A stretch of DNA of 64,000 nt, taken from the NCBI RefSeq assembly GCF_029626155.1, contig NZ_JARUBL010000001.1, forward strand, positions 868,001 to 932,000. Direction: 5' to 3'. The number at the start of each line of letters is the position of its first letter. Positions within the stretch are counted from its first letter, which is position 1. A model generated the notes under the pieces. The model was not told where the DNA came from. It was given only the letters and a program-made list of their open reading frames with translations, and searched no databases. Made by a program: the position numbers and the translations under genes. Source of the DNA: Solwaraspora sp. WMMD1047 (GTDB lineage: Bacteria; Actinomycetota; Actinomycetes; Mycobacteriales; Micromonosporaceae). Below, piece after piece: positions 14,595 through 29,053 of this stretch.

Positions 14595-14858
14595 ATGAGC
14601 GACGTGATCGTGCGGATGTGGGAGGCCAAGGCGGAGCCGAAGGGGTTCGCCGAACTGATCTCCTGGGTCTGCGAGAAGGCGCTGCCGGAGATCGAGCACA
14701 ACCCGCTGCACGTGTCCAGTGAGGTCTTCTCCTCAACGGACAACCGGGTCGTGGTGATCTCCAAGTGGCGCAGCAACCCGGTCAGCCTGCCCGAGCCGCC
14801 GGTGCTGCTGGTCGCCCGCCCACCCCACAGCTGGGACTTCGCCCAGGTCGACCGCTGA
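14595..14858 (+). CDS. Conserved-looking small protein of unknown function
   Basis: Predicted 87 residues, no family recognised with certainty. The sequence is charged and compact (VIVRMWEAKAEPKGFAEL early, RVVVISKWRSNPVSLPEPP late). Its size and pattern of beta strands with one helix would fit a ferredoxin-like alpha+beta barrel such as the ABM monooxygenase-type dimers, but no active-site residue supports that. The gene begins 24 bases after tsaD in the same direction, so it is probably read with the tsa operon; GCAAGGGAG lies just before the ATG as ribosome site. Confidence 0.65.
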   Translation: MSDVIVRMWEAKAEPKGFAELISWVCEKALPEIEHNPLHVSSEVFSSTDNRVVVISKWRSNPVSLPEPPVLLVARPPHSWDFAQVDR

Positions 14859-14916: not shown

Positions 14917-16620
14917 ATGCGGCCGCTACCCGAGGCTGATCCCGGTAGTCCCGACCGGCGGTCGGCCACCAGGTTCCTGCTGTGGATGGCGGCCCGGATC
15001 TGGCCGGCACTCACCGCGTCGGTGCTGTTCGCCATCGTCTGGATGGTCAGCCAGGCGCTGATGCCGGCCGCGATCGGCAGAGCCATCGACGACGGACTCA
15101 CCGACCGTGACCGGGACGCCCTCCTCGCCTGGGGACTCGTCCTGCTCGGCCTCGGCGCCACCCAGGCGGTCAGCGGGATCATGCGGCACCGGTTCGCGGT
15201 CTTCTGCTGGCTGTCCAGCGCGTACCGGACCATGCAGGTCTCCGTCGACCAGGCCAACCGGCTCGGCGCCACCCTGCCCAAGCGGCTCGCCACCGGCGAG
15301 GTGGTGAGCATCGGCACCTCCGACGTGGAGCGGATCGGTAGCGCCCTGGACATCACGGCCCGGGGCGTCGGGTCGGTGGTCGGGATCGTGGTGATCGCGG
15401 CCGTCCTGCTCGACACCTCGGCGCAACTCGGCCTGGTCGTCCTGCTCGGGGTGCCGGTGTTGATGGCGGTGGTCGCCCTGCTGATCCGGCCGCTGCACCG
15501 GCGGCAACGTTCCTACCGCGACCAGGAAGGGAACCTGGCCACCCAGGCCGGCGACATCGTCACCGGGCTGCGGGTGCTGCGCGGCGTCGGTGGCGAGCGC
15601 CTCTTCTCCACCAGGTACCGGACCGAGTCGCAGCAGCTGCGGGCCGCCGGGGTGCGGGTGGCCCGGGTCGACGCGCTGCTGGAGTCGGCGCAGGTGCTGC
15701 TGCCCGGCCTGTTCGTGGCACTGGTGACCTGGCTCGGGGCCCGCTACGCGCTGGCCGGCGAGATCACCGCGGGGCAGCTGGTCGCCAGCTACGGCTACAC
15801 CGCGTTCCTGATCACGCCACTGCGGACACTCACCGAGTTGGTCGACAAGTACACCAAGGGACACGTCGCCGCCCGCCGGGTGGTGAATCTGCTCAACCTC
15901 GAACCGGAGCTGCGCGACCCGGACCAGCCGGCGACCATCCCCGAACGCGGCGGCGAACTCGTCGACGTCACCTCCGGGCTGGTGCTGCGACCGGGACGAC
16001 TGACCGCCATCGCCGCCGCCGACCCGGCCGACGCGACCGCGCTGGCCGACCGGCTGGGGCGGTACACCGACGCGGAGGTGACGCTGCACGGCGTACCCCT
16101 GGAAGAGCTGGCGCTGGCGACGGTGCGGGAGCGGATTCTGGTGGCCGACAACGACGCGCGTCTCTTCTCCGGGCCGCTCCGCGCGGAGCTTGACCCGCGC
16201 GACGCGGCCGGGGACGCGGAGATCGCGGCGGCGTTGGCCGCCGCCAGCGCCACCGACATCGTCGCGGCGCTGCCCGACGGGCTGGACAGTCACGTCGCCG
16301 AGCGGGGGCGGGAGTTCTCCGGCGGGCAGCAGCAGCGGTTGCGGCTGGTCCGGGCGCTTGTCGCCGACCCGGAGATCCTGATCCTGGTCGAGCCGACGAG
16401 CGCCGTCGACGCGCACACCGAGGCGCGGATCGCGGCCCGGCTGCGCGCCGCCCGACGGGGCCGTACCACCCTGATCTGCAGCACCAGCCCGCTGGTGCTG
16501 GACCGGGCCGAACACGTCATCTTCGTCGACGACGGCAAGGTGGTCGCCGAGGGCACCCACCGGGAACTGCTCGACAGCCAGCCCCGGTACGCCGCCACCG
16601 TGACCCGGGCGGAGGACTGA
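14917..16620 (+). CDS. ABC exporter subunit with degenerate ATP site (subunit A)
   Basis: Predicted 567 residues: six transmembrane helices (about 25-320), then an ATPase domain. The expected Walker A loop is replaced by IAAADPADATALAD (about 364-377), with no GxxGxGKS. The signature FSGGQQQR (from 467) is intact. Walker B reads ILILVEPTSAVD, with Val491 in place of Asp and Glu492 kept. The switch His is replaced in ICSTSPLVL. This subunit cannot form its own Walker site but can supply the signature to the partner. It overlaps the partner gene by one base (TGATG), so a heterodimeric exporter is strongly implied. Cargo is unknown. Confidence 0.88.
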   Translation: MRPLPEADPGSPDRRSATRFLLWMAARIWPALTASVLFAIVWMVSQALMPAAIGRAIDDGLTDRDRDALLAWGLVLLGLGATQAVSGIMRHRFAVFCWLSSAYRTMQVSVDQANRLGATLPKRLATGEVVSIGTSDVERIGSALDITARGVGSVVGIVVIAAVLLDTSAQLGLVVLLGVPVLMAVVALLIRPLHRRQRSYRDQEGNLATQAGDIVTGLRVLRGVGGERLFSTRYRTESQQLRAAGVRVARVDALLESAQVLLPGLFVALVTWLGARYALAGEITAGQLVASYGYTAFLITPLRTLTELVDKYTKGHVAARRVVNLLNLEPELRDPDQPATIPERGGELVDVTSGLVLRPGRLTAIAAADPADATALADRLGRYTDAEVTLHGVPLEELALATVRERILVADNDARLFSGPLRAELDPRDAAGDAEIAAALAAASATDIVAALPDGLDSHVAERGREFSGGQQQRLRLVRALVADPEILILVEPTSAVDAHTEARIAARLRAARRGRTTLICSTSPLVLDRAEHVIFVDDGKVVAEGTHRELLDSQPRYAATVTRAED

Positions 16621-18374
16621 TGACAGTGGACCGGGCGCTGCCCGTCGCCGACGCGCGGCAGGTCCGCCGGTACGCCCGCACCCTGCTGCGGCGGCACCCG
16701 CGCGCCCTGGCCGGGGTGCTGGGCCTGCACGCGCTGGCCGCGATCGCCGGGCTGGCCGCCCCCCGGCTGCTCGGCGAGCTGGTGGAGGGCATCGCCGCCG
16801 GCACCAGCCGGGTGAGCGTGGACCGGATCGCATTGGCCATCGCCGGGTTCGTGGTCGGGCAGGCGGTGCTGGTGCGGTTCGCGCACTTCGCCTCCGCCCG
16901 GCTCGGCGAACGGGTCCTCGCCGAACTGCGGGAGGACTTCGTCGACCGGATCCTCGCCATCCCGCTGGCCACCGTCGAACGGGCCGGCACCGGTGACCTG
17001 CTCACCCGCACCTCCCGGGACGTCGCCGCGCTGTCGCGCACCGTCCGGTACGCCGTGCCGGACACCCTGATCGCGGCGGTCACCCTGGTCCTGATGGGCG
17101 GCGCGCTGCTGCTGGTCGGGCCGCTGCTGGCGGTGCCCTGCCTGATCGCGGTGCCGATCCTCTGGGCGATCACCCGGTGGTACCTGCGCCGGGCGCCGGC
17201 CGGGTACCTGCGGGAGAACGCCGCCTGGTCGGACATCACCGACGGACTCAGCGAGACCGTCGAAGGCTCCCGGACCACCGATGCACTCGGCCAGCGCGCC
17301 CGCCGCCGGGCCCGCACCGACGCCGACATCCGCCGGTCGTACGCGGCCGAGCGGTACACCATGTGGCTGCGCACGATCTCCTGGCCGGTGCTGGAGTTCA
17401 GCTATGTGCTGCCGGTGGGCGCAACCCTGGTGATCGGTGGCTTCTTCTATCTGGAGGGCTGGGTCACCCTCGGGCAGGTCACCGCCGCCACCCTCTACGT
17501 GCAACTGCTCATCGAACCGCTCGACCGGCTGCTCTCCTGGCTGGACGAGCTGCAGGTCGGCGGCGCGTCGCTGGCCCGGCTGCTCGGTATCGCTCAGACC
17601 GACGACGAGCGGCCTGACGCGGGTGTGGCCAGTCCGGACGGGCGGGAGCTGGTCGCGCGGGACGTGCGGTACGCCTACCGGGACGGGCGGGACGTGCTGC
17701 ACGGGATCACGCTCACCCCGCGGCCCGGCGAGCGGCTGGCGATGGTCGGTCCGTCCGGTGCCGGCAAGTCCACCCTCGGCCGGCTGCTCGCCGGCATCCA
17801 CCGGCCGCGGGCCGGGGTGGTGACCGTGGGCGGGGTGCCGCTTGCCGATCTGCCGTTGGCCGAGCTGCGTACCCGGGTCGCGCTGGTCACCCAGGAGCAT
17901 CACGTCTTCGTCGGCAGCGTGCGGGACAACATCCGGATGGTGCGGCCGGACGCCGATGACGGGCGGATCCGCGCGGCGCTGGCGGCGGTGGACGCGTTGG
18001 ACTGGGTCGAGGCGCTGCCGGCCGGGCTGGACACCGTGGTCGGGGCCAAGGGCCACCCGGTGCCGGCCGCGCAGGCGCAGCAGCTCGCGCTGGCCCGGCT
18101 GGTGCTTGCCGACCCGCACACGTTGGTGCTGGACGAGGCCACCTCGCTCATCGACCCGCGCGCGGCCCGGCACCTGGAACGGTCGCTGGCCGGTGCGCTG
18201 CGCGGCCGTACGGTGATCGCGATCGCACACCGGCTCTTCTCGGCACACGACGCGGACCGGGTGGCGGTGGTCGAGGACGGCCGGATCACCGAGCTGGGCT
18301 CCCACGCCGAGCTGGTCGCCGCCGACGGCTCGTACGCGGCCCTCTGGCGCTCCTGGCACGGCACCACAACCTAG
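16620..18374 (+). CDS. ABC exporter subunit with intact Walker motifs (subunit B)
   Basis: Predicted 584 residues with six transmembrane helices, then an ATPase domain. Walker A GPSGAGKST is at 377-385, the Q-loop is in LVTQEHHVF, Walker B is LVLDEATSLID (Asp505, Glu506) and the switch is IAHRL (His537). The signature is replaced by VPAAQAQQ from 481. This is the mirror image of subunit A: one composite ATP site (Walker of B plus signature of A) stays consensus and the other is dead on both faces. Such asymmetry is known in heterodimeric type IV exporters. The last codons are duplicated at 20086-20160. Confidence 0.9.
   Translation: MTVDRALPVADARQVRRYARTLLRRHPRALAGVLGLHALAAIAGLAAPRLLGELVEGIAAGTSRVSVDRIALAIAGFVVGQAVLVRFAHFASARLGERVLAELREDFVDRILAIPLATVERAGTGDLLTRTSRDVAALSRTVRYAVPDTLIAAVTLVLMGGALLLVGPLLAVPCLIAVPILWAITRWYLRRAPAGYLRENAAWSDITDGLSETVEGSRTTDALGQRARRRARTDADIRRSYAAERYTMWLRTISWPVLEFSYVLPVGATLVIGGFFYLEGWVTLGQVTAATLYVQLLIEPLDRLLSWLDELQVGGASLARLLGIAQTDDERPDAGVASPDGRELVARDVRYAYRDGRDVLHGITLTPRPGERLAMVGPSGAGKSTLGRLLAGIHRPRAGVVTVGGVPLADLPLAELRTRVALVTQEHHVFVGSVRDNIRMVRPDADDGRIRAALAAVDALDWVEALPAGLDTVVGAKGHPVPAAQAQQLALARLVLADPHTLVLDEATSLIDPRAARHLERSLAGALRGRTVIAIAHRLFSAHDADRVAVVEDGRITELGSHAELVAADGSYAALWRSWHGTTT
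18294..18363 (+). repeat. Left copy of a duplicated ABC-transporter gene end
   Basis: About 70 bases encoding the C-terminal GSHAELVAADGSYAALWRSW of subunit B recur at 20086-20160 at roughly 85 percent identity, including the reading frame and a stop codon. The two copies bracket the peptide/regulator genes and transposase scars. Confidence 0.8.
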
Positions 18375-18724: not shown

Positions 18725-18833
18725 TCACCTCGAGACTTAACCATGATCACGAGTGGCGGCTGCCGTACCAGGTGGCACTGCCTGGGTACGACGGAACGAT
18801 CCAAACTGGATGATCCTCGCGTACAGTCGCGTT

Positions 18834-19688
18834 GTGGTCAGTGATCGGTCTCAGCTTGCTGCGTTCCTTCGCTCCCGGCGTGACCGGCTTACGCCACGGC
18901 AGGCCGGCATCGCGCCGCTGCCGGGCGAACGCCGGGTACCGGGACTGCGCCGCGAGGAGCTGGCTCTGCTCGCTGGGATCAGCGCCGACTACTACAGCCG
19001 CCTTGAGCAGGGGCGCCAGGCGAACATCTCTCGCGAGGTACTCGACGCGTTGGCCCGGGCTCTGCGTCTCAGTGACGTGGAGCGCGGCCATTTGTACGAC
19101 CTTGCCACGCCCCGCTCGCCCCGCAGCCGGGTGCCTGTCGACCGCACCCAGCGGCCGGATCCGGGGATGCTGCGGGTGCTCAGCACGCTCGATCATGTCC
19201 CGGCCGTGCTCATCGGCCGGCGCGGGATCGTGCTGGCCCGCAACGCGCTGTTCAGCGCCGTGTACGGGCACAGCATGGACCCGGGCACGTCGTGGGCGCA
19301 CTTCCTTTTCCTCCACCCGGAGGCTCGGGCGCGGATCGACGACTGGGAAGGCTGCGCCAGGGCCGCCGTCGCAGGGCTGCGGCGTGAGGCCGCCCGCCAT
19401 CCGCAAGACCGCCGACTGAAGCGCGACATCGACGAGCTGCGCCGGGCCGACCCGGACGTCGAGCGTTGGTGGGACGAGCACCGGGTCGGCGAGTACTCCT
19501 CGGGTTACCGACGCATCCGGCACCCGGTCGCCGGCAACTTGGATTTCGACGTCGAGCTGGTCGTCGCCCCGCAGGAGGCCGGCCAGCACCTCGTCATCTA
19601 CACCGTCGAGGCGCACTCGCGGACGGCACGCGCCCTACCGCTGCTCGCCGCCTTGCGCTCCGACCAGGTGGAGATGCAACCCATTTGA
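18834..19688 (+). CDS. XRE family regulator with MmyB-like ligand-binding domain
   Basis: About 284 residues from GTG 18834, probably leaderless because TACAGT lies 6 bases upstream. Residues 1-75 form a Cro/C1-type HTH (LAAFLRSRRDRLTP, LRREELALLAGISADYYSRL). From about 110 to the end is an MmyB-like effector domain: LDHVPAVLIGRRGIVLARN, then WAHFLFLHPEARARIDDWE, and a C-terminal DVELVVAPQEAG sheet. In other actinobacteria such domains are thought to bind small ligands. It follows a secreted peptide gene, a suggestive arrangement. The frame is complete, with no defect seen. Confidence 0.85.
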   Translation: MVSDRSQLAAFLRSRRDRLTPRQAGIAPLPGERRVPGLRREELALLAGISADYYSRLEQGRQANISREVLDALARALRLSDVERGHLYDLATPRSPRSRVPVDRTQRPDPGMLRVLSTLDHVPAVLIGRRGIVLARNALFSAVYGHSMDPGTSWAHFLFLHPEARARIDDWEGCARAAVAGLRREAARHPQDRRLKRDIDELRRADPDVERWWDEHRVGEYSSGYRRIRHPVAGNLDFDVELVVAPQEAGQHLVIYTVEAHSRTARALPLLAALRSDQVEMQPI

Positions 19689-20318: not shown

Positions 20319-23300
20319 ATGCTCCTTCCCACCCAGCGGCGACGTGTAGAGCGCCGATTCTCGTTAAGGTCCGGGCTCGCTGCGGCGATGGTCGGGGGAC
20401 TGCTCGCGGTACCTGTGGAGACCCCGGCGGCGCTGGCCGCCGAACCGGCGCGTCTGCCGGCCGAGACGGCGGCGGCCGCTGCCTCCCGGGCCGCCGCGCA
20501 AAGCAACGAGCGGGTCGAGGTCGCACCGGCGCGCACCGAGCTGAGCCAGGTGTTCGCGTTGCCGGACGGCGGGTTCCAGCTGGAGTCGGCAGTGGTGCCG
20601 CAGCGCACCAAGCGGACTGACGGCTCGTGGGCCGACATCAACCTCGACCTGGTGCCCGATGGCGCCGGCGGATGGCGGCCGACCGCGTCCACGGCCGACG
20701 TTCGGTTCTCCGGCGGCGGGACCGGCCCGATGGCTACCCTCACCAGGCCCGGCGGCACGTTCACCCTCACCTGGCCGTCGGCGTTGACACCGCCCACCGT
20801 GTCGGACGACTCCGCGCGGTACCTCAACGTGCTGGACGGTGTCGACCTGGTGCTACGGGCCACCCCCACTGGGTTCACCCATGTGCTGGTCCTGAACACC
20901 CCCGAGGCCGCCGCCGATCCCAGGGTCCGCCAGCTGGCCTTGCAGGTCGGCGGGGCGCAGATGCGGCGGCTCCCCGACGGCGGACTGCGTGCGATGAGCC
21001 CAACCGGTGAGCTGCTGGCGGCGGCTCCGGAGCCGGCCATGTGGGATTCCACTCCGTCGACGGCCGGAGCGCCGGCTGCTCCTGGCGACGCGGGCAGGAT
21101 CAGCACCTCCTCTGACTCCTCGCCGGTCGGGCCGGGCGACGCCGCGACGATCGCGCCCGTCGACACCGATGTGGACGCCGATGGACGGCTGCTGCTGCGA
21201 CCCGATCCGGAGCTGTTGGACTCCGATACCGCGGTCTATCCGCTCTACATCGACCCGGCCTGGGACACCGGACGCCGCCGCTGGGCGTACGCGACGAGCA
21301 ACAACTCGAACAACACCGACACCTCGGTGGCCCGGGTCGGCAGCAACCCCGAAGACGGGGTGCGCTACCGGTCCTACTTCGAGTTCGCCACCGCCAGTCT
21401 GGCGAGCAAGCACATCCGCTCGGCGTACGTGCAGATGAAACTCGACCACTCCTCATCCTGCGGCGACACCTGGACGCACCTATACCACACCAAGGGGATC
21501 GCCAAGACCCCACGCAACAAATGGGCGATCGCCCACAACTCGTGGATCGCGGCGGCGGCCTCGCACGCCAACGAGGCAGGTGGATGCGGCACCATCCAGC
21601 CGGACATGACGGTGAACTTCATCAACGACGCCGTATCCGAACTCATGCAGCGGGCCGCCGACAACAAGGCGGGTTCGGTCACCGTCGGCTTCTGTGCCTG
21701 CAATGCGGACGGCGACTACGAGTCCGAGGTCGAACGGTGGAAGAAGTTCTTCCCGGCCGACGCGAAGCTGGTTGTCGACTACAGCTCGTACCCGGGCAAG
21801 CCCAGCTCCCAGCAGGTCTCCGGGGTGGCCTGTCCGACGTCGGGCCGGGCGATGATCGGTACGACGACGCCTACCCTGTCGGCGCACTACTCCGACGCGG
21901 ATACCACCCAGGCGCTGCGGGCCTCGTTCGAGTGGCTGGAGATCCCGCCGTCCGGCACCTACAACGACTCGACTCCCCGCAAGCCGGCGCCGCCGACCGT
22001 CTCGATCGCCGCCAACAGCCGAGGCACGAGCGCAGCCCTGAGCGGCCTGGTCAACGGCAAGTCGTACGCCTTCCGGACCCGCTCGAAGGATCCAGAGCCC
22101 TACAACCTGGACAGCCTCTGGTCGGCCTGGTGCGAGTTCACTGTCGACACGGAGGGACCGCCGGTGTCGGTCGTGATCGAATCCGCACCGGCGGGGCCCG
22201 GGAAGCCGGGCACCTTCCGGATCGTGTCCCCGGACACCAGCGTGACCAGTTTCCGGTACGGCTGGACCGACCCGGGGACGACGGAGGTGGCGGCCACCGG
22301 CACCGGTCCTCGGACCGCGACCGTCACCCTCACCGCGCCGAATTACGGGGTGAACATCCTGCACGTCTCGGCCGCCGACAGCACCGGGAACCGGGGCTAC
22401 GGATCGTTGCAGTTCACCGTCGCCCGGCCCAGCCCGGCGGTCGCGCACTGGGGTTTGGAGACCTGGCCGGGCCGCAACGTCTCCGCGGCGTTGGCCGACC
22501 AGCGTCCGGAACTGGCCGGAAATACACCGTTGACCAGTGCCAGTCCGGCCTGGGAGGCGGAGGCCCGATTCATCGGAGCGAGCACGGCCGACTTCGGGAC
22601 CAGCGCGATGGCATACACCGCCCCCGGTCCCATCATCGACACTAGGTCGAACTATTCCGTGTCCGCCCTGGTGCGGCTCGACTCGACGAGTTGCGCGGGC
22701 AACCAGACCGCCGTTTCGGTGGACGGCGGGCAGAACAGCGCCTTCTTCCTGAGCTACTCGTGCGAGGCCAACCGCTGGCGGTTCCGGGTCGCTGACGTGG
22801 ACGGGCCGGCGGTGACCTTCGTCAACGCTACGGCCCCAACGGCGCCGATGGCCGGGCAGTGGACGCGGGTCGCCGGGAGTTGGAACGCGACCGAGCGGAA
22901 GGCGCTGCTGTTCGTTGATGGCGCGGTTGTGGCCGAGACGACGGCGTCGGCCGACTGGCGGAGCCGCTACGGCGCGGGCTGGCAGGCGACCGGTCCGTTG
23001 ACCGTCGGCCGGGATCGGTGGGCTGGCGGATCCGGCGGCCAGTTCGGCGGCCAGATCGCCGACGTACAGGTCTTCGACCGAGTCCTGGTAGGCCATGACT
23101 TCACGGGGTTGACCGCAGAGGAACAGGATGACTCTGGCGGCTTCGACGAACCGGGCGTCGTCACTCCGATCGAAGTCGGCCGGTGGGCGTTCAACGACGC
23201 GTTTCCCTGCTACGAGGAAGGGATCCCGTCCACCTGTGAGGCGGAGGACGCGTCGCCATGGCGTCGACGGCTCGCGGTGACGACCGGTACTGGTGCCGGC

Positions 23301-23975
23301 GAAGGGCGCCGAGGTGTGGCCTTGGCGTTTGACCGCAGCCACTGGATCGATGACCCGTTCGATCCGCACTACGGCACCACGACCACCGAGTACGGCCGCA
23401 GTCAGCGAAACACCGCGCTCTCGGGACCGCCAACCTGGCAGAACGCGCCGGTCTTGCGAACCGACCAGTCCTTCACGGTCTCGGTCTGGGTCCGCCCCAC
23501 CGACCTGGTGATGCACACCGCCACCGCCGTCGCCCAGCGCGCAGGCCAGGTCTCGGCCTTCTACCTCTCAGCCCGGTTGCTCAACATCAACGGGAATCTC
23601 CAGCACAGTTGGGGATTCACCGTCTACCAGGCTGACCAGGACGGCGCGGGAGTCACCGCGGCGCAGCGAACCAAGGCGCTGGACACCGACGACATGAGCA
23701 CCTGGACCCACCTGGTAGGCGTCTACGACGCCGGCGCCCGCCAGATCCGGCTCTACGTCAACGGCAGCCTCGCGGAAGCTCAGCCCGTCTCCCAGGCGAT
23801 CGCCGCCACCGGTCCGATGACCGTGGGCGCGGGCTGGTTCACCCCGGCCGGTGGGACCGGCTCCTGGGCCGACCTGTGGCCCGGCGAGATCGACGACCTC
23901 GCCACCTACCAGGGAGCGATGACCGACGCGGCGGTCAAGCTCCTCTTCGCCGAAGAATCCGCCGCACTCGACTGA
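20319..23975 (+). CDS. Large secreted protein with DNRLRE-like and two LamG-type domains
   Basis: Predicted 1218 residues with an N-terminal signal region (SGLAAAMVGGLLAVPVETPA). The first third is beta-rich, then DPAWDTGRRRWAYATSNNSN opens a DNRLRE-type repeat domain. A fibronectin-like section follows (ASFEWLEIPPSG onward), then two concanavalin/LamG jelly-roll domains: one around FRVADVDGPAVTF and LFVDGAVVAETTAS, another at the C-terminus around WTHLVGVYDAGARQIRLYVNG. Proteins of this build commonly sit immediately upstream of giant actinobacterial RHS proteins, as here (38-base gap), and probably act at the cell surface with them. The start ATG 20319 has only a weak ribosome site. Confidence 0.8.
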   Translation: MLLPTQRRRVERRFSLRSGLAAAMVGGLLAVPVETPAALAAEPARLPAETAAAAASRAAAQSNERVEVAPARTELSQVFALPDGGFQLESAVVPQRTKRTDGSWADINLDLVPDGAGGWRPTASTADVRFSGGGTGPMATLTRPGGTFTLTWPSALTPPTVSDDSARYLNVLDGVDLVLRATPTGFTHVLVLNTPEAAADPRVRQLALQVGGAQMRRLPDGGLRAMSPTGELLAAAPEPAMWDSTPSTAGAPAAPGDAGRISTSSDSSPVGPGDAATIAPVDTDVDADGRLLLRPDPELLDSDTAVYPLYIDPAWDTGRRRWAYATSNNSNNTDTSVARVGSNPEDGVRYRSYFEFATASLASKHIRSAYVQMKLDHSSSCGDTWTHLYHTKGIAKTPRNKWAIAHNSWIAAAASHANEAGGCGTIQPDMTVNFINDAVSELMQRAADNKAGSVTVGFCACNADGDYESEVERWKKFFPADAKLVVDYSSYPGKPSSQQVSGVACPTSGRAMIGTTTPTLSAHYSDADTTQALRASFEWLEIPPSGTYNDSTPRKPAPPTVSIAANSRGTSAALSGLVNGKSYAFRTRSKDPEPYNLDSLWSAWCEFTVDTEGPPVSVVIESAPAGPGKPGTFRIVSPDTSVTSFRYGWTDPGTTEVAATGTGPRTATVTLTAPNYGVNILHVSAADSTGNRGYGSLQFTVARPSPAVAHWGLETWPGRNVSAALADQRPELAGNTPLTSASPAWEAEARFIGASTADFGTSAMAYTAPGPIIDTRSNYSVSALVRLDSTSCAGNQTAVSVDGGQNSAFFLSYSCEANRWRFRVADVDGPAVTFVNATAPTAPMAGQWTRVAGSWNATERKALLFVDGAVVAETTASADWRSRYGAGWQATGPLTVGRDRWAGGSGGQFGGQIADVQVFDRVLVGHDFTGLTAEEQDDSGGFDEPGVVTPIEVGRWAFNDAFPCYEEGIPSTCEAEDASPWRRRLAVTTGTGAGEGRRGVALAFDRSHWIDDPFDPHYGTTTTEYGRSQRNTALSGPPTWQNAPVLRTDQSFTVSVWVRPTDLVMHTATAVAQRAGQVSAFYLSARLLNINGNLQHSWGFTVYQADQDGAGVTAAQRTKALDTDDMSTWTHLVGVYDAGARQIRLYVNGSLAEAQPVSQAIAATGPMTVGAGWFTPAGGTGSWADLWPGEIDDLATYQGAMTDAAVKLLFAEESAALD

Positions 23976-24013
23976 CCCGTCGATCCTCGAACCCTTGAGC
24001 CGGGAGGCGACCT

Positions 24014-27000
24014 GTGAGCAAGCGATCTCGTCGAGGATTGGCCGCTGGGCTAACCATGGTCATGGTGCTGTCCGGCATGCTGGCGGTACCGCCCGCTGCC
24101 GCGCAGCCGGCCAAGCCGGAACAGCGCGGCGCCCCAGCCGAGGAGTTCGACTCACATGGCGGGGAGGTGGCCAAGGCGCCGCCTCGGAAGCAGGCGGCCC
24201 CGCCTGACGTGGATCTGCCGGATGTGGTGTGGCCGGAGGCCGGCACCGCCCGGGTGGTTGTGCCGACATCGGAGACGGGACAAGGCATTGTCCAGGCAAA
24301 GGGCCTCCCGGTGTCGGTGGCCGCCGTCACCGAGTCCGCCAACCGAGGTCCGACGGAGACCGCCGCCGCCGTACCCGGGGGCTCGGAACTAACCGTTCAG
24401 GTGCTCGACCGACAGGCGGTGCCGGCCCAGTGGCGAGACGGAGTCCTGCTCAAACTGACTGCTTCCGCCGGCAACCCGGGCGGCCGGGTCCGGCTCTCGG
24501 TCAACTATGGCGACTTCCGGTGGGCTTACGGCGGAGACTGGTCATCCCGGCTGCAGTTGTGGCAGGTGCCGCCCTGTGCGCTGACCAGCCCGGACCAGGA
24601 GGGGTGCGGGGCAACGCCGCTGCCCGGCCACAACGACACCGCAACCCTGACGGTGAGCGCCGAGACGTCCGTGGCTACTGGCGCGACGCGCAACGCCGGA
24701 CCGTTCGCCGGCGAGGCCAGCGCCTCGACCGGTCACCTCGTCGCCTTGGCCGCCGGGTCCTCGGGGCCATCCGGTGACTTCGGTGCCACCTCGATGCTTC
24801 CGTCGTCCACCTGGAGCGTTGGCGGATCCACCGGCGGTTTCACCTGGTCGTACCCGCTGCGGGTGCCGCCGGGCACGGGCGGGCCGAAGCCGGACATCGC
24901 CTTGGCCTACTCCTCGGCTAGCGTTGACGGACGGTCCGAAGTCACGAACAACCAGCCCTCGTGGATCGGCGAGGGCTTCGAGTACTCCCCGGGCTACATC
25001 GAACGTCGCTACGTGCCCTGCTCCGAGGACATGGAGGGCTCGGCGAACAACTCCGAGAAGACTGGTGACCTCTGCTGGCGGTCGAACAACGCTGTTGCCA
25101 GCTTCAACGGCGGCGGCTCCGATCTGGTCTGGAAGGCCGGAAGCGTCTGGCGGCAACGCAACGACGACGGATCGAAGATTGACCGGCTCACCGGCGCGGA
25201 CAACGGTGACGACGACGGCGAGTACTGGCGGATCACCACCACCGACGGCACCCGGTACTACTTCGGGGTCAACCGACCGGAGGGGCACACCGGCACCACC
25301 GACTCGACCTGGACCGTCCCGGTGTACGGCAACCACAACAACGAACCGTGCAACAAGAGCACCTTCACCACCTCAGCCTGCAACCAGGCCTGGCGGTGGA
25401 ACCTCGACTACGTCATCGACGCGCGCGGCAACAGCATGTCGTACTGGTACAACCGGGAGTTCAACAACTACGCCGCCGAGGTCACGTCGAGCAAGGTGAA
25501 GCGCTATGTGCGGGGCGGCACCCTGCGCCTGATCGACTACGGCACCTGGGACCGGGGCGCCACTGACCGGTCCATCCACCCGACCGGCCAGATCCTCTTC
25601 GACACCGGTGACCGGTGCCGCGAAGACTGCGGTAGCAAGACCGCCGAGTACTGGCCGGACGTGCCCTGGGACCAGGAGTGCGCCGACGGGTCGACAAGCT
25701 GCCAGCAGAAACACGCCCCCACCTTCTGGTCCACCAAGCGCCTCACCAAGGTCACTACCAGGGTCTGGGACACCGCGAAGGCGACCCCTGGCTGGCAACA
25801 GGTCGACTCCTGGAAACTCGAACATTCCTTCCCATCGGGGGGAGATGGCAGCACCTATCGAGGACTGTGGCTGAAGTCGATCCAGAACACGGGCGAGGTC
25901 GGCATCGCCCCGGCCGGCGCACCTGCAGGCGAGACGGCCCCGATTACGCTACCGCCGGTCACCTTCGAACCGGTCTCTCTCCCCAACCGGGTACTGACCC
26001 GGACCAACACCAGCAACAACTGGCAGCGGATGGGCAACGTCCACCTGGAGACCGGTGCGCGCATTCAGGTGACCTACAGCCTGCCGGACTGCACAAGTTC
26101 CAGCCTGCCCTCGGCCCCGCACACCAACACCCGGCTCTGCTATCCGGTGATCGGCCCGAATCCGGCCAACCCCGATGGCCCCGACATCACCGAGTACTGG
26201 CACAAGTACGTCGTCGATCAGGTCTCCCAGACTGACGTGCAGGTGCCCGGCGGACATCAGTCACCAACGGTCAACACCCACTACGACTACATCGGCAACC
26301 CGGCCTGGCACTACGCCGACGACGACGGCCTGATCCGGCCGAAACGCAAGACCTGGAACCAGTTCCGGGGGTACGCGACGGTCGAGCAGCGGGTCGGCGA
26401 GTCGTCCGCGGAGCAGACTCTCACCAGGACCACGTACTTGCGCGGCATGCACGGCGACCGGGCCGCCCCGTCCGGCGGGACCAGGACCGTCACCGTTGCG
26501 GCCTCGGTCGGGACGGAGGCCGTGTACGACGAGGACACGTTCGCCGGGATGGTCCGGGAGGAGGTGGTCTACAACGGCACCACCAACCGGCCGGTCAGCC
26601 GCAAGGTCAACGTGCCGTGGCAGTCGCCCCCGACCGCCAGCCGGACCATCAACGACGACCAGGTCCACGCCCGGCATACCGGGACGCGGGTGGTCTACGA
26701 CTCCACCGCGCTCGGCGTGGACGGCACGGCCGGCTGGCGGACCACCCGCACCACCACGACCTTCGACGACACCTACGCGTCGGTGACCCAGACCTTGGAC
26801 GACGGCGACATTGCTGTCACCGGAGATGAGAAGTGCACCACCTTCACGTACAACCGGAACCTCGACAAGAATCTCACCGGGCTGCTCAAGCGGACCACGT
26901 CCGTGGCGCTGCCCTGCGGTACCGCGCCGACCGCTCCCGCGCACGTGCTCGGGGACGTTCGCAACACCTACGACGGCGCCACCAGCCCGGACACCGCGCC

Positions 27001-29053
27001 GACCGTCGGCGGCATCACTCGGGTCGAGCAGCTCGCGGATTGGACCCCGAGCGGCGGCACCATCTGGCAGGTGGCCAGCGCCTCGACGATCGACAGGTTC
27101 GGACGGACGACCAGCGAGACCGATATCAAGGGGAACGTCACCACCATCACCTACACGCCGGAGAACGGCGGTCCGGTCACCCGGCAGGTGCGACGGCTGA
27201 CGGACCCGTACGGCTGGATCACCACCACCGACATTTCGCCGTACTGGGGGAATCCGGTAAAGCAGACCGACCCGAACGGCAGGATCAACGAGGCGACCTA
27301 TGACGCGCTCGGCCGGACGAGCCGGGTCTGGGAGGTCGGCTGGAGCCGAGCGAGTCACGGCAACAACCCGTCGGCCCGGTTCAACTACCACTACGCCGCC
27401 GACCGCAACGCCTACCCCTACATCCACACCGAGGCCCTGCACGCCGGCGGCGCATACCGTTCCGGGTACGAGATCGTCGATGGCTTCCTGCGGTCCCGGC
27501 AGACCCAGGCGGCGGCCGTCGGTGGCGGCCGGGTGGTCACCGACACCAAGTACGACCCGTTGGGGCGGGCGGTCACCAGCTATGGCGCTCACGCCGAACC
27601 GGGCGATCCGTCGGGCACCCTCTGGTGGGAGCCGGAGTGGTCGGTGCCGGCGGTGGGCCGGACGGTGTACGACCGGGCGTCCCGGCCCACCGCCCAGATC
27701 TTCCTCTCCGGGAACGACGTCGAAAGCGTGGTGGAGAAGTGGCGAACGACCACCCGTTATGCGGGGGACACCGTCTCGGTCACTCCGCCGAGCGGTGGCG
27801 TGCCGACGACCACCATCACCGACGTGCAAGGCCGGGCCGTTCAGGTCCGGCAGCACACCACCCAATCGGGTGTGGACGGCGCCTATCAGACCACCCAATA
27901 TGCCTACGACCACCGCGACAAACTCGTCCGAGTGACTGACCCTGCCGGCAACGAATGGACCTACCAGTACGACGTACGGGGCCGCCAGGTCGGGTCCAAG
28001 GACCCGGACAGCGGCGTCACCTCCATGACATACAACAGCCATAACGAGTTGGTCAGCACCACGAACGCGCTTGGCGAGACCCTGGTCAATACCTACGACC
28101 AGCTCGGCCGCAAGATCGGACGTTATGCGGGGAGCGTGGCTCCGGAGAACCGCCTTGCCGAATGGAAGTACGACCGGAACTACGGCATGGTGCCGATCCG
28201 TGGCCATCTAACCGAGACGATTCGCTACGAGGATGGCGAGCAATACAAGTGGCAGTTGGGCGGCTTCAATCAGCGCTACCAGCCCACGTCGATGAACTTC
28301 GTCATCCCGAGTTCGGAGCCCGGGTTCGCCGGAACATGGAAAATGATCTACGGCTACTCCGACTACGACGGTTCAGTTACGAAAGTGCAGTATCCGCCCG
28401 TCGGCGGACTCGCCAACGAGGCGGTCACCACCACGTACAACTCGACGACCGGCCTTCCCGCCACCCTGAAAACCAGCGCGGACCTCGGGGACACCTATGT
28501 AGCAGGCCAGACGTACACGGCGTACGGCGAGCCGTCCATCACCACGCGCAAACGAAGCGCAGGCACCTACACCGAGGAGATCCTCTCCTACGAGCGAGAC
28601 ACCCGCCGGGTGGCTCGCCAGCAAATCAAGTCGGAGGTCATCGACAGCACCGTTGCTGACACGAGGTATACCTACGACGCGGCCGGCAACATCGAGTCGA
28701 TCTTTGACGAGCCGCAGGTTGGGGAGGTCGATCGGCAGTGCTTCGAGTACGACGCGCTGCGCCGGCTGCGGGAGGCATGGACGCCGAAGGTCGGCGTCGG
28801 TTGTGGCACCGCGGCGAGCGTGGCCAACCTTGGCGGGGCGGCTCCGTACTGGACCGAGTGGACGATCGACGCGATCGGCAACCGGACCGAGGAGCGGTCG
28901 CACGGCACCGCGGGTGACACGGTCCGCACATACCAGGTTCCCGCATCTGGTCAGAACGCGATCCGTCCGCACGCTGTCACTTCGGTAACCACGACTGCCC
29001 CTGGCCAGGCGCCGACGGCTCAGTCCTACGCGTACGACGCGGCCGGGACATGA
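24014..29053 (+). CDS. RHS/YD-repeat polymorphic toxin carrier, N-terminal part (frameshift at end)
   Basis: Predicted 1679 residues from GTG 24014 (GGGAGG upstream). A signal peptide (LAAGLTMVMVLSGMLAVPPA) and beta-rich linker lead to a SpvB-like segment, KPDIALAYSSASVDGRSE. Then come many YD repeats such as TYDALGRTSRV, VTDPAGNEWTYQYDVRGR and NTYDQLGRKIGRY, which build the RHS shell. It ends abruptly at AYDAAGT. The next frame continues the same repeat as NMTSRPGADG if one A is restored at about 29047-29049 (GGGACATG versus expected GGGAACATG). It is therefore the front of one gene of about 2300 codons broken by a single-base deletion. Confidence 0.88.
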   Translation: MSKRSRRGLAAGLTMVMVLSGMLAVPPAAAQPAKPEQRGAPAEEFDSHGGEVAKAPPRKQAAPPDVDLPDVVWPEAGTARVVVPTSETGQGIVQAKGLPVSVAAVTESANRGPTETAAAVPGGSELTVQVLDRQAVPAQWRDGVLLKLTASAGNPGGRVRLSVNYGDFRWAYGGDWSSRLQLWQVPPCALTSPDQEGCGATPLPGHNDTATLTVSAETSVATGATRNAGPFAGEASASTGHLVALAAGSSGPSGDFGATSMLPSSTWSVGGSTGGFTWSYPLRVPPGTGGPKPDIALAYSSASVDGRSEVTNNQPSWIGEGFEYSPGYIERRYVPCSEDMEGSANNSEKTGDLCWRSNNAVASFNGGGSDLVWKAGSVWRQRNDDGSKIDRLTGADNGDDDGEYWRITTTDGTRYYFGVNRPEGHTGTTDSTWTVPVYGNHNNEPCNKSTFTTSACNQAWRWNLDYVIDARGNSMSYWYNREFNNYAAEVTSSKVKRYVRGGTLRLIDYGTWDRGATDRSIHPTGQILFDTGDRCREDCGSKTAEYWPDVPWDQECADGSTSCQQKHAPTFWSTKRLTKVTTRVWDTAKATPGWQQVDSWKLEHSFPSGGDGSTYRGLWLKSIQNTGEVGIAPAGAPAGETAPITLPPVTFEPVSLPNRVLTRTNTSNNWQRMGNVHLETGARIQVTYSLPDCTSSSLPSAPHTNTRLCYPVIGPNPANPDGPDITEYWHKYVVDQVSQTDVQVPGGHQSPTVNTHYDYIGNPAWHYADDDGLIRPKRKTWNQFRGYATVEQRVGESSAEQTLTRTTYLRGMHGDRAAPSGGTRTVTVAASVGTEAVYDEDTFAGMVREEVVYNGTTNRPVSRKVNVPWQSPPTASRTINDDQVHARHTGTRVVYDSTALGVDGTAGWRTTRTTTTFDDTYASVTQTLDDGDIAVTGDEKCTTFTYNRNLDKNLTGLLKRTTSVALPCGTAPTAPAHVLGDVRNTYDGATSPDTAPTVGGITRVEQLADWTPSGGTIWQVASASTIDRFGRTTSETDIKGNVTTITYTPENGGPVTRQVRRLTDPYGWITTTDISPYWGNPVKQTDPNGRINEATYDALGRTSRVWEVGWSRASHGNNPSARFNYHYAADRNAYPYIHTEALHAGGAYRSGYEIVDGFLRSRQTQAAAVGGGRVVTDTKYDPLGRAVTSYGAHAEPGDPSGTLWWEPEWSVPAVGRTVYDRASRPTAQIFLSGNDVESVVEKWRTTTRYAGDTVSVTPPSGGVPTTTITDVQGRAVQVRQHTTQSGVDGAYQTTQYAYDHRDKLVRVTDPAGNEWTYQYDVRGRQVGSKDPDSGVTSMTYNSHNELVSTTNALGETLVNTYDQLGRKIGRYAGSVAPENRLAEWKYDRNYGMVPIRGHLTETIRYEDGEQYKWQLGGFNQRYQPTSMNFVIPSSEPGFAGTWKMIYGYSDYDGSVTKVQYPPVGGLANEAVTTTYNSTTGLPATLKTSADLGDTYVAGQTYTAYGEPSITTRKRSAGTYTEEILSYERDTRRVARQQIKSEVIDSTVADTRYTYDAAGNIESIFDEPQVGEVDRQCFEYDALRRLREAWTPKVGVGCGTAASVANLGGAAPYWTEWTIDAIGNRTEERSHGTAGDTVRTYQVPASGQNAIRPHAVTSVTTTAPGQAPTAQSYAYDAAGT

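Follow-up and report, generated by a model that had tools for sequence, protein, structure and literature searches.

Can a transporter with the exporter fold of the ATP-binding cassette (ABC) family run on a single ATP site? This question is raised by two adjacent genes of Solwaraspora sp. WMMD1047, here called subunits A and B, which lie within a stretch of 64,000 nucleotides of contig NZ_JARUBL010000001.1 (positions 868,001 to 932,000; from here: the window). Heterodimeric exporters with one degenerate ATP site are well known. The reason why so many ABC transporters retain an impaired site is still open, and the leading idea is that ATP acts there as glue (PMC7756269, PMC12038006). In the A/B pair motifs of the second site are missing on both faces, and we regard it as probable that the two subunits make up an obligate heterodimer, a type IV ABC transporter having only one ATP site, in which the other interface is a nucleotide-free contact.

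Division of the ATP-site motifs between two half-transporters

Subunit A (14917-16620, 567 amino acids) and subunit B (16620-18374, 584 amino acids) are both encoded on the plus strand, and their genes share a single base (TGATG, 16618-16622); the open reading frame (ORF) coordinates match exactly those of a first-pass annotation, which had been made from the letters of the DNA. According to Pfam, ABC_membrane (PF00664) is followed by ABC_tran in a single chain in A and B alike, the arrangement of type IV half-transporters (type I exporter fold), and the same order was found in all members of two alignments (47/47 A and 44/44 B). As in heterodimeric exporters, two different half-transporter genes are adjacent here, and it is from the fold that we take the pair for an exporter. 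The ABC_tran profile is covered at positions 40-137 in A versus 1-137 in B. AlphaFold models, built with 47 (A) and 44 (B) sequences, reached a mean predicted local distance difference test (pLDDT) score of 90.7 for A, with its degenerate ATPase domain, and 84.5 for B, whose ATPase domain has intact cis motifs and a lost signature.

The first-pass annotation had proposed that A lacks Walker A, the Walker B Asp and the switch His while keeping FSGGQ, and the residues bear this out. At the former P-loop of A, AAADPADATALAD (16012-16050), AADPADAT stands in place of GxxGxGK[ST], the Walker A pattern expected of an active ATPase subunit; the alignment is uncertain by one residue at this position and the motif appears in no register. 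In the predicted structure, helix 370-380 follows almost directly on strand 362-367 without a phosphate loop, at a local pLDDT of about 94-95, whereas in predicted B strand 372-376 leads into loop 377-382 and then helix 383-390. A P-loop elsewhere in the chain would speak against the loss, but a pattern search of target A for GxxGxGK[ST], [AG]xxxxGK[ST] and GK[ST] gave no match. In the Walker B region of A, ILILVEPTSAVD (16375-16410), the motif reads ILILVEPTS, with Val for Asp, Glu492 retained at the catalytic position and the D-loop SAVD kept. The former switch (H-loop), TLICSTSPLVL (16468-16500), reads CSTSP and has no His. The signature FSGGQ (16315-16329) is intact and would act in trans at the working site.

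These losses had been listed correctly, while three features of A had been overlooked: the loss of the A-loop, the loss of the Q-loop Gln and the Glu retained at the catalytic position. GGELVDVTSG (15949-15978) opens the ATPase domain of A where the A-loop hairpin is missing; in the model the hairpin is reduced to two three-residue strands (348-350 and 355-357), compared with 344-352 and 358-365 in B. The former Q-loop, VADNDARLF (16141-16167), reads VADND and contains no Gln.

Subunit B was expected to keep Walker A, Walker B and the switch His and to have VPAAQ as its signature, which is what we found. Its A-loop region ARDVRYAYRDG (17655-17687), Walker A GPSGAGKST (17748-17774), Q-loop VTQEHHVF (17886-17909), Walker B TLVLDEATS with catalytic Glu506 (18120-18155) and switch IAIAHRLF (18216-18239) are intact, VPAAQ (18060-18074) replaces LSGGQ, and the D-loop has diverged to SLID (within 18120-18155). 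Residues 509-515 of predicted B have a pLDDT below 50. By sequence, the cis motifs of B together with the signature and D-loop of A make up one composite site with all consensus motifs.

Conservation and origin of the motif partition

The idea that one composite site is consensus and the other lost on both faces is borne out across the aligned relatives. Counting the target, we aligned 102 A proteins and 99 B proteins from 100 stretches picked for diversity among the listed matches, the four pairs of the Solwaraspora genome among them; one B protein (L082) was retained despite a short alignment. Separately, 8 of 197 profile matches were removed for length. The B of locus L136 was dropped for a frameshift, leaving 99 B ORFs against 102 A; in this locus (G030:C1:2379800-2385900) B is split over two frames beside an open A gene, either an error or a pseudogene.

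The Walker A Lys is present in 0/102 A versus 99/99 B, with the entire GxxGxGK[ST] in all aligned B and in no A protein, and even the first Gly of the motif is retained in only 2/102 A. The looser patterns [AG]xxxxGK[ST] and GK[ST] occur in 3 and 8 of the 102 A proteins, respectively, and the matches inspected lie late in the chain. No A protein has an A-loop aromatic residue, and the A-loop is present in all 99 B (Tyr in 98, His in 1). The same division holds for the Q-loop Gln (2/102 A, 99/99 B), the Walker B Asp (11/102 A, 99/99 B) and the switch His (0/102 A, 99/99 B). In the opposite direction, the SGGQ signature is found in 100/102 A versus 0/99 B, and the D-loop pattern [ST]AxD in 99/102 A versus 0/99 B, the D-loop Asp itself being present in 102/102 A and 97/99 B. 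Hence, cis elements are kept in B and trans elements in A, each subunit retaining what serves one composite site and being stripped of most of what would serve the other. The chief exception is the acid at the catalytic position, present in 102/102 A (Glu 86, Asp 16), where all 99 B have Glu.

Several replacements are conserved themselves: at the former switch of A Ser (101/102) and Pro (99/102), in addition Pro at Walker A position 4 (81/102) and Asp before the Q position (85/102), and in the former signature of B Ala (82/99) followed by Gln (99/99). A further 20 A and 18 B proteins had been chosen by motif and were left out of these counts; among the 20 A, that of L168 (from Actinomyces) carries a Ser where the catalytic acid would be. 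A second, diverged copy (L086, G148:C20) has SSGE for SGGQ in A and VSQMHQII at the Q-loop of B; elements of the working site thus shift in both subunits.

A-like matches, at E 1e-60 or better, were obtained in 137/150 genomes from the family, and further in 52/200 of the order (1e-90) and 22/396 of the phylum (1e-70), counts in which the Solwaraspora genome is included each time, the sets overlap, paralogues are included and motifs were only partly checked. Altogether, 750 genomes were searched, repeats included, all picked by kinship within Actinomycetota. Among the best 80 matches listed, the 20 named loci with the trait are all Actinomycetota by title. The Solwaraspora genome has four such A/B pairs, and its 23 ABC_membrane matches divide into 4 without and 19 with the Walker A Lys.

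A FastTree tree was computed from 356 of 390 aligned sequences, 34 rows having been excluded as gapped or too short. The leaves cannot be counted as independent, since the four pairs of the own genome are present twice and some loci overlap. All 133 leaves that lack the Walker A Lys fall into one split (support 1.0), motif columns masked or not, and the sampled B partners form another (121 leaves, support 1.0). The Lys occurs in 223/223 leaves outside the A clade and 0/133 inside, and parsimony on the whole tree requires one change for the loss of Walker A and five for that of the Walker B Asp. No intermediate with a half-lost P-loop was found among the sampled A-clade leaves, and the tree gave no placement for the sister group of this clade. 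The tree set, assembled without a Walker A condition, replaced a rejected control of 114 other ATPase domains, in which the 114/114 Lys arose partly by construction because Gly at the Walker A start had been required. Walker A loss therefore has a single origin in the sampled tree and is a trait of an actinobacterial clade, not local decay.

The two genes are neighbours in most loci. A B gene was present in the stretch fetched for 100 A genes, and in 93 of these cases the A/B junction lies within 60 bases, where the start of B was set by extrapolation from the alignment. Distances among A and among B agree with r 0.945 over 95 pairs, the largest value of 500 permutations being 0.16; part of this agreement is expected from shared species history alone. 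Two loci (L110 and L111) had A without B in the first stretch, with a B match about 4.5 kb off in each genome. At L250:1423-9362 and L251 (genomes G007 and G025), A and B are about 4.5 kb apart, and at both loci a gene for a MacB/FtsX-type permease lies in between; an ABC ATPase gene was seen at L250, a weak peptidoglycan-binding match just under the cut-off at L251, and one stop within the B match of G025.

The many catalytic residues missing at once in the window might suggest that A is broken or decaying, or an artefact of sequencing or a frameshift. We consider this scarcely credible. The same losses recur in 102/102 A within one clade, the frame of A is open over 567 amino acids with a G+C content at third codon positions of 0.93, and four such pairs occur in the genome. 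The ratio of nonsynonymous to synonymous substitution rates (dN/dS) was below 1, at most 0.51 in 64 comparisons (both domains of A and of B in 16 pairs of relatives) and no higher than 0.65 when the target was set against six relatives (24 comparisons), values that are rough because third positions are about 93% G+C and dS is probably underestimated or saturated. On conservation, clade structure and dN/dS, decay or artefact was rejected.

A predicted nucleotide-free interface

Judged from the motifs, A's face of the dead site has lost the phosphate loop, the adenine contact, the Q-loop and the switch, in most relatives together with the Walker B Asp, and B's face has lost the signature. Given this loss, ATP binding at the degenerate site appears unlikely. 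Neither A:A nor B:B would have a complete site; A:B is therefore the expected unit, and we infer that the two chains form a heterodimer and that this heterodimer transports. In the proposed mechanism, B would provide the A-loop, Walker A, Q-loop, Walker B, catalytic Glu and switch His, and A the signature and D-loop acting across the interface, with the single ATP sitting between the P-loop of B and the signature of A. The opposite interface, between A's former ATP site and B's former signature, would probably be free of nucleotide, a direct protein-protein contact that may hold or pivot the two ATPase domains. Per cycle, one ATP would close the dimer and its hydrolysis would reopen it. It also seems moderately likely that throughout the actinobacterial clade each dimer uses exactly one ATP, nucleotide binding having been lost at the second site in favour of a conserved ATP-free hinge.

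Several points weigh against this proposal. Pdr5 has a badly altered site, described as the most extreme case of its kind, in which ATP is nevertheless bound (PMC8421411), so that motif loss need not mean loss of binding. The acid at the catalytic position of every A is not obviously needed by a purely structural site. The dN/dS values are rough, as stated above, and the structural matches of A do not single out degenerate-site halves. Finally, the support comes from sequences and from models of the single chains.

In whole-chain structure comparisons, the top match of A was chain A of MsRv1273c/72c (Z 28.9, root-mean-square deviation (rmsd) 3.8, 553 aligned), followed by TmrAB chain B (Z 28.3) and TM287/288 chain A (Z 27.9), with BmrCD also in the match list. 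Because canonical exporters and ATPase domains are nearly tied with these (Z 27.8 to 27.0, within about one unit of the top), the matches show a normal exporter fold only. The order of matches was for the same reason dropped as a sign that A descends from degenerate-site halves.

In TM287/288, TmrAB and BmrCD, all of them bacterial heterodimeric exporters of type IV, a consensus site is paired with a degenerate one, whose residue changes are milder than in the A/B pair. In the heterodimers ABCG5/ABCG8 and TAP1/TAP2, the P-loop is present apart from the changes named next. Both have one impaired site and a changed signature, with Walker A Lys to Arg in ABCG5/G8 and a changed catalytic Glu and switch in TAP (PMC7756269). 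The degenerate sites of TM287/288 and TmrAB bind nucleotide (PMC7756269). MsRv1273c/72c of Mycobacterium smegmatis, which also comes from an actinobacterium, is likewise a type IV heterodimer with a single degenerate site and is, within the tie, A's top match, differs in that Asp497 and Gln528 are marked in its degenerate site and ATP occupies both sites (PMC12038006). OmrDE of Ornithinimicrobium cerasi, a multidrug ABC transporter that is again an actinobacterial heterodimer and in which one site is non-canonical, has only its catalytic Glu changed to Asp, Walker A and the other motifs being stated to be conserved (PMC11109279); it was rejected as a member of the family, the kind of change being different. 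A literature search on StrV/StrW and RamA/RamB as possible members gave nothing useful.

Pdr5 resembles the A/B pair in that one site is altered in all or all but one of its motifs, the signature of the other half is lost (LNVEQ) and the other site is complete (PMC7756269, PMC8421411). The first-pass annotation had called the asymmetry of A and B more complete than that of most heterodimeric exporters. This stands in that more motifs are lost than it stated, and it has to be tempered in that A keeps the catalytic acid (102/102) and in that a near-complete loss of one site has been described before, for Pdr5 (PMC8421411, PMC7756269). Pdr5 differs in being one chain, in its order of nucleotide-binding domain (NBD) before transmembrane domain (TMD), and in its Walker A Lys to Cys change, with ATP at the altered site (PMC7756269, PMC8421411). 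A and B are separate genes with TMD-NBD order and with P-loop and A-loop erased, and neither has the Pfam order NBD-TMD-NBD-TMD of a Pdr5-type single chain. Among the papers listed by searches of open-access PMC text, we found no bacterial clade with a site erased on both faces, P-loop included, and no paper recognisable as dealing with a Walker-A-less exporter subunit.

A Pdr5-like arrangement, with ATP held more or less permanently as glue in the altered site by backbone and non-canonical contacts and turnover at the other site only, would agree with the catalytic-position acid always retained in A, with the ATP seen at the degenerate sites of Pdr5 (PMC8421411) and MsRv1273c/72c (PMC12038006), and with the leading idea for degenerate exporters (PMC7756269). 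However, Pdr5 is described as having another residue in place of the Walker A Lys (PMC7756269), and for ATP binding MsRv1273c uses its Walker A and the A-loop Tyr343 (PMC12038006), whereas here the P-loop glycines, Lys, A-loop, Gln and His are gone, the Asp in most relatives too, and the signature is gone from the other face. We judge such permanently held ATP to be unlikely, though a serious possibility, and prefer a nucleotide-free contact.

Genomic context and meaning for type IV transporters

The target block has the order rimI - tsaD - 87-aa ORF - A - B. A tblastn search of the 100 stretches, that of the window among them, placed tsaD and the 87-aa ORF in 29 each and a rimI-like gene in 24, most stretches having less than 2 kb upstream, many holding paralogues, and mostly reaching a few hundred bases past B. 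This block is consistent with an old, vertically kept gene pair. The 87-aa ORF between tsaD and A (14595-14858) has no Pfam or NCBIfam match. Downstream of B lies a regulator with a helix-turn-helix and an MLTR_LBD domain (18753-19688), found in no other of the 100 stretches, most of which end a few hundred bases past B. At 20319-29053, a 1218-aa ORF with LamG-type (Laminin_G_3) domains precedes a 1679-aa ORF with YD/Rhs-like repeats recognised by eye.

The context of more distant relatives bears on whether the pair is an export pump at all. Of six loci of a distant branch scanned for neighbours, four have siderophore-type or nonribosomal peptide synthetase (NRPS) genes: L173 (36% identity) and L177 (32%) adjoin NRPS and ornithine/lysine monooxygenase genes, L175 (30%) has an NRPS gene nearby and L179 (32%) a gene for a Peripla_BP_2 binding protein. 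The scan of L170 and L178 gave neither NRPS or monooxygenase nor binding-protein genes, and L163 and L168, which are nearer to the target, have no siderophore-type genes among the neighbours scanned. These neighbours suggest siderophore transport for part of the distant branch only. Since some distant relatives of the pair are found in hydroxamate siderophore clusters, gene context hints at a possible link to CchG/CchI of Streptomyces coelicolor, the presumed exporter of coelichelin (PMC12161575). Within this distant branch (L066, L170, L172-L174, L177-L179, L182 and L202), B has given up the D-loop Asp as well, with sequences such as TAEAG, and A reads HDPTTAVD in most cases.

An importer, a channel or an ATP-dependent regulator on the exporter fold would fit the siderophore clusters of some distant relatives and the best structural match of B, chain A of the siderophore importer IrtAB (Z 30.9, rmsd 8.5, 516 aligned), which is tied with exporters: TmrAB chain A reaches 30.1, and the matches within 1 Z of IrtAB include exporters. 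CFTR and SUR, moreover, are non-pump relatives with degenerate sites (PMC7756269). Since the ATP site of B is complete and the target adjoins rimI and tsaD and no iron locus, we hold such a role to be very unlikely and keep to a pump with one working ATP site.

If this is true of the clade, nature would supply a departure from the picture in which the degenerate site is a glue held by ATP. A conserved family in which one site is stripped of nearly all nucleotide contacts on both faces makes the glue idea testable, and two small adjacent bacterial genes offer a practical system. Should one nucleotide suffice for these pumps, the type IV cycle would not require that a second ATP be bound.

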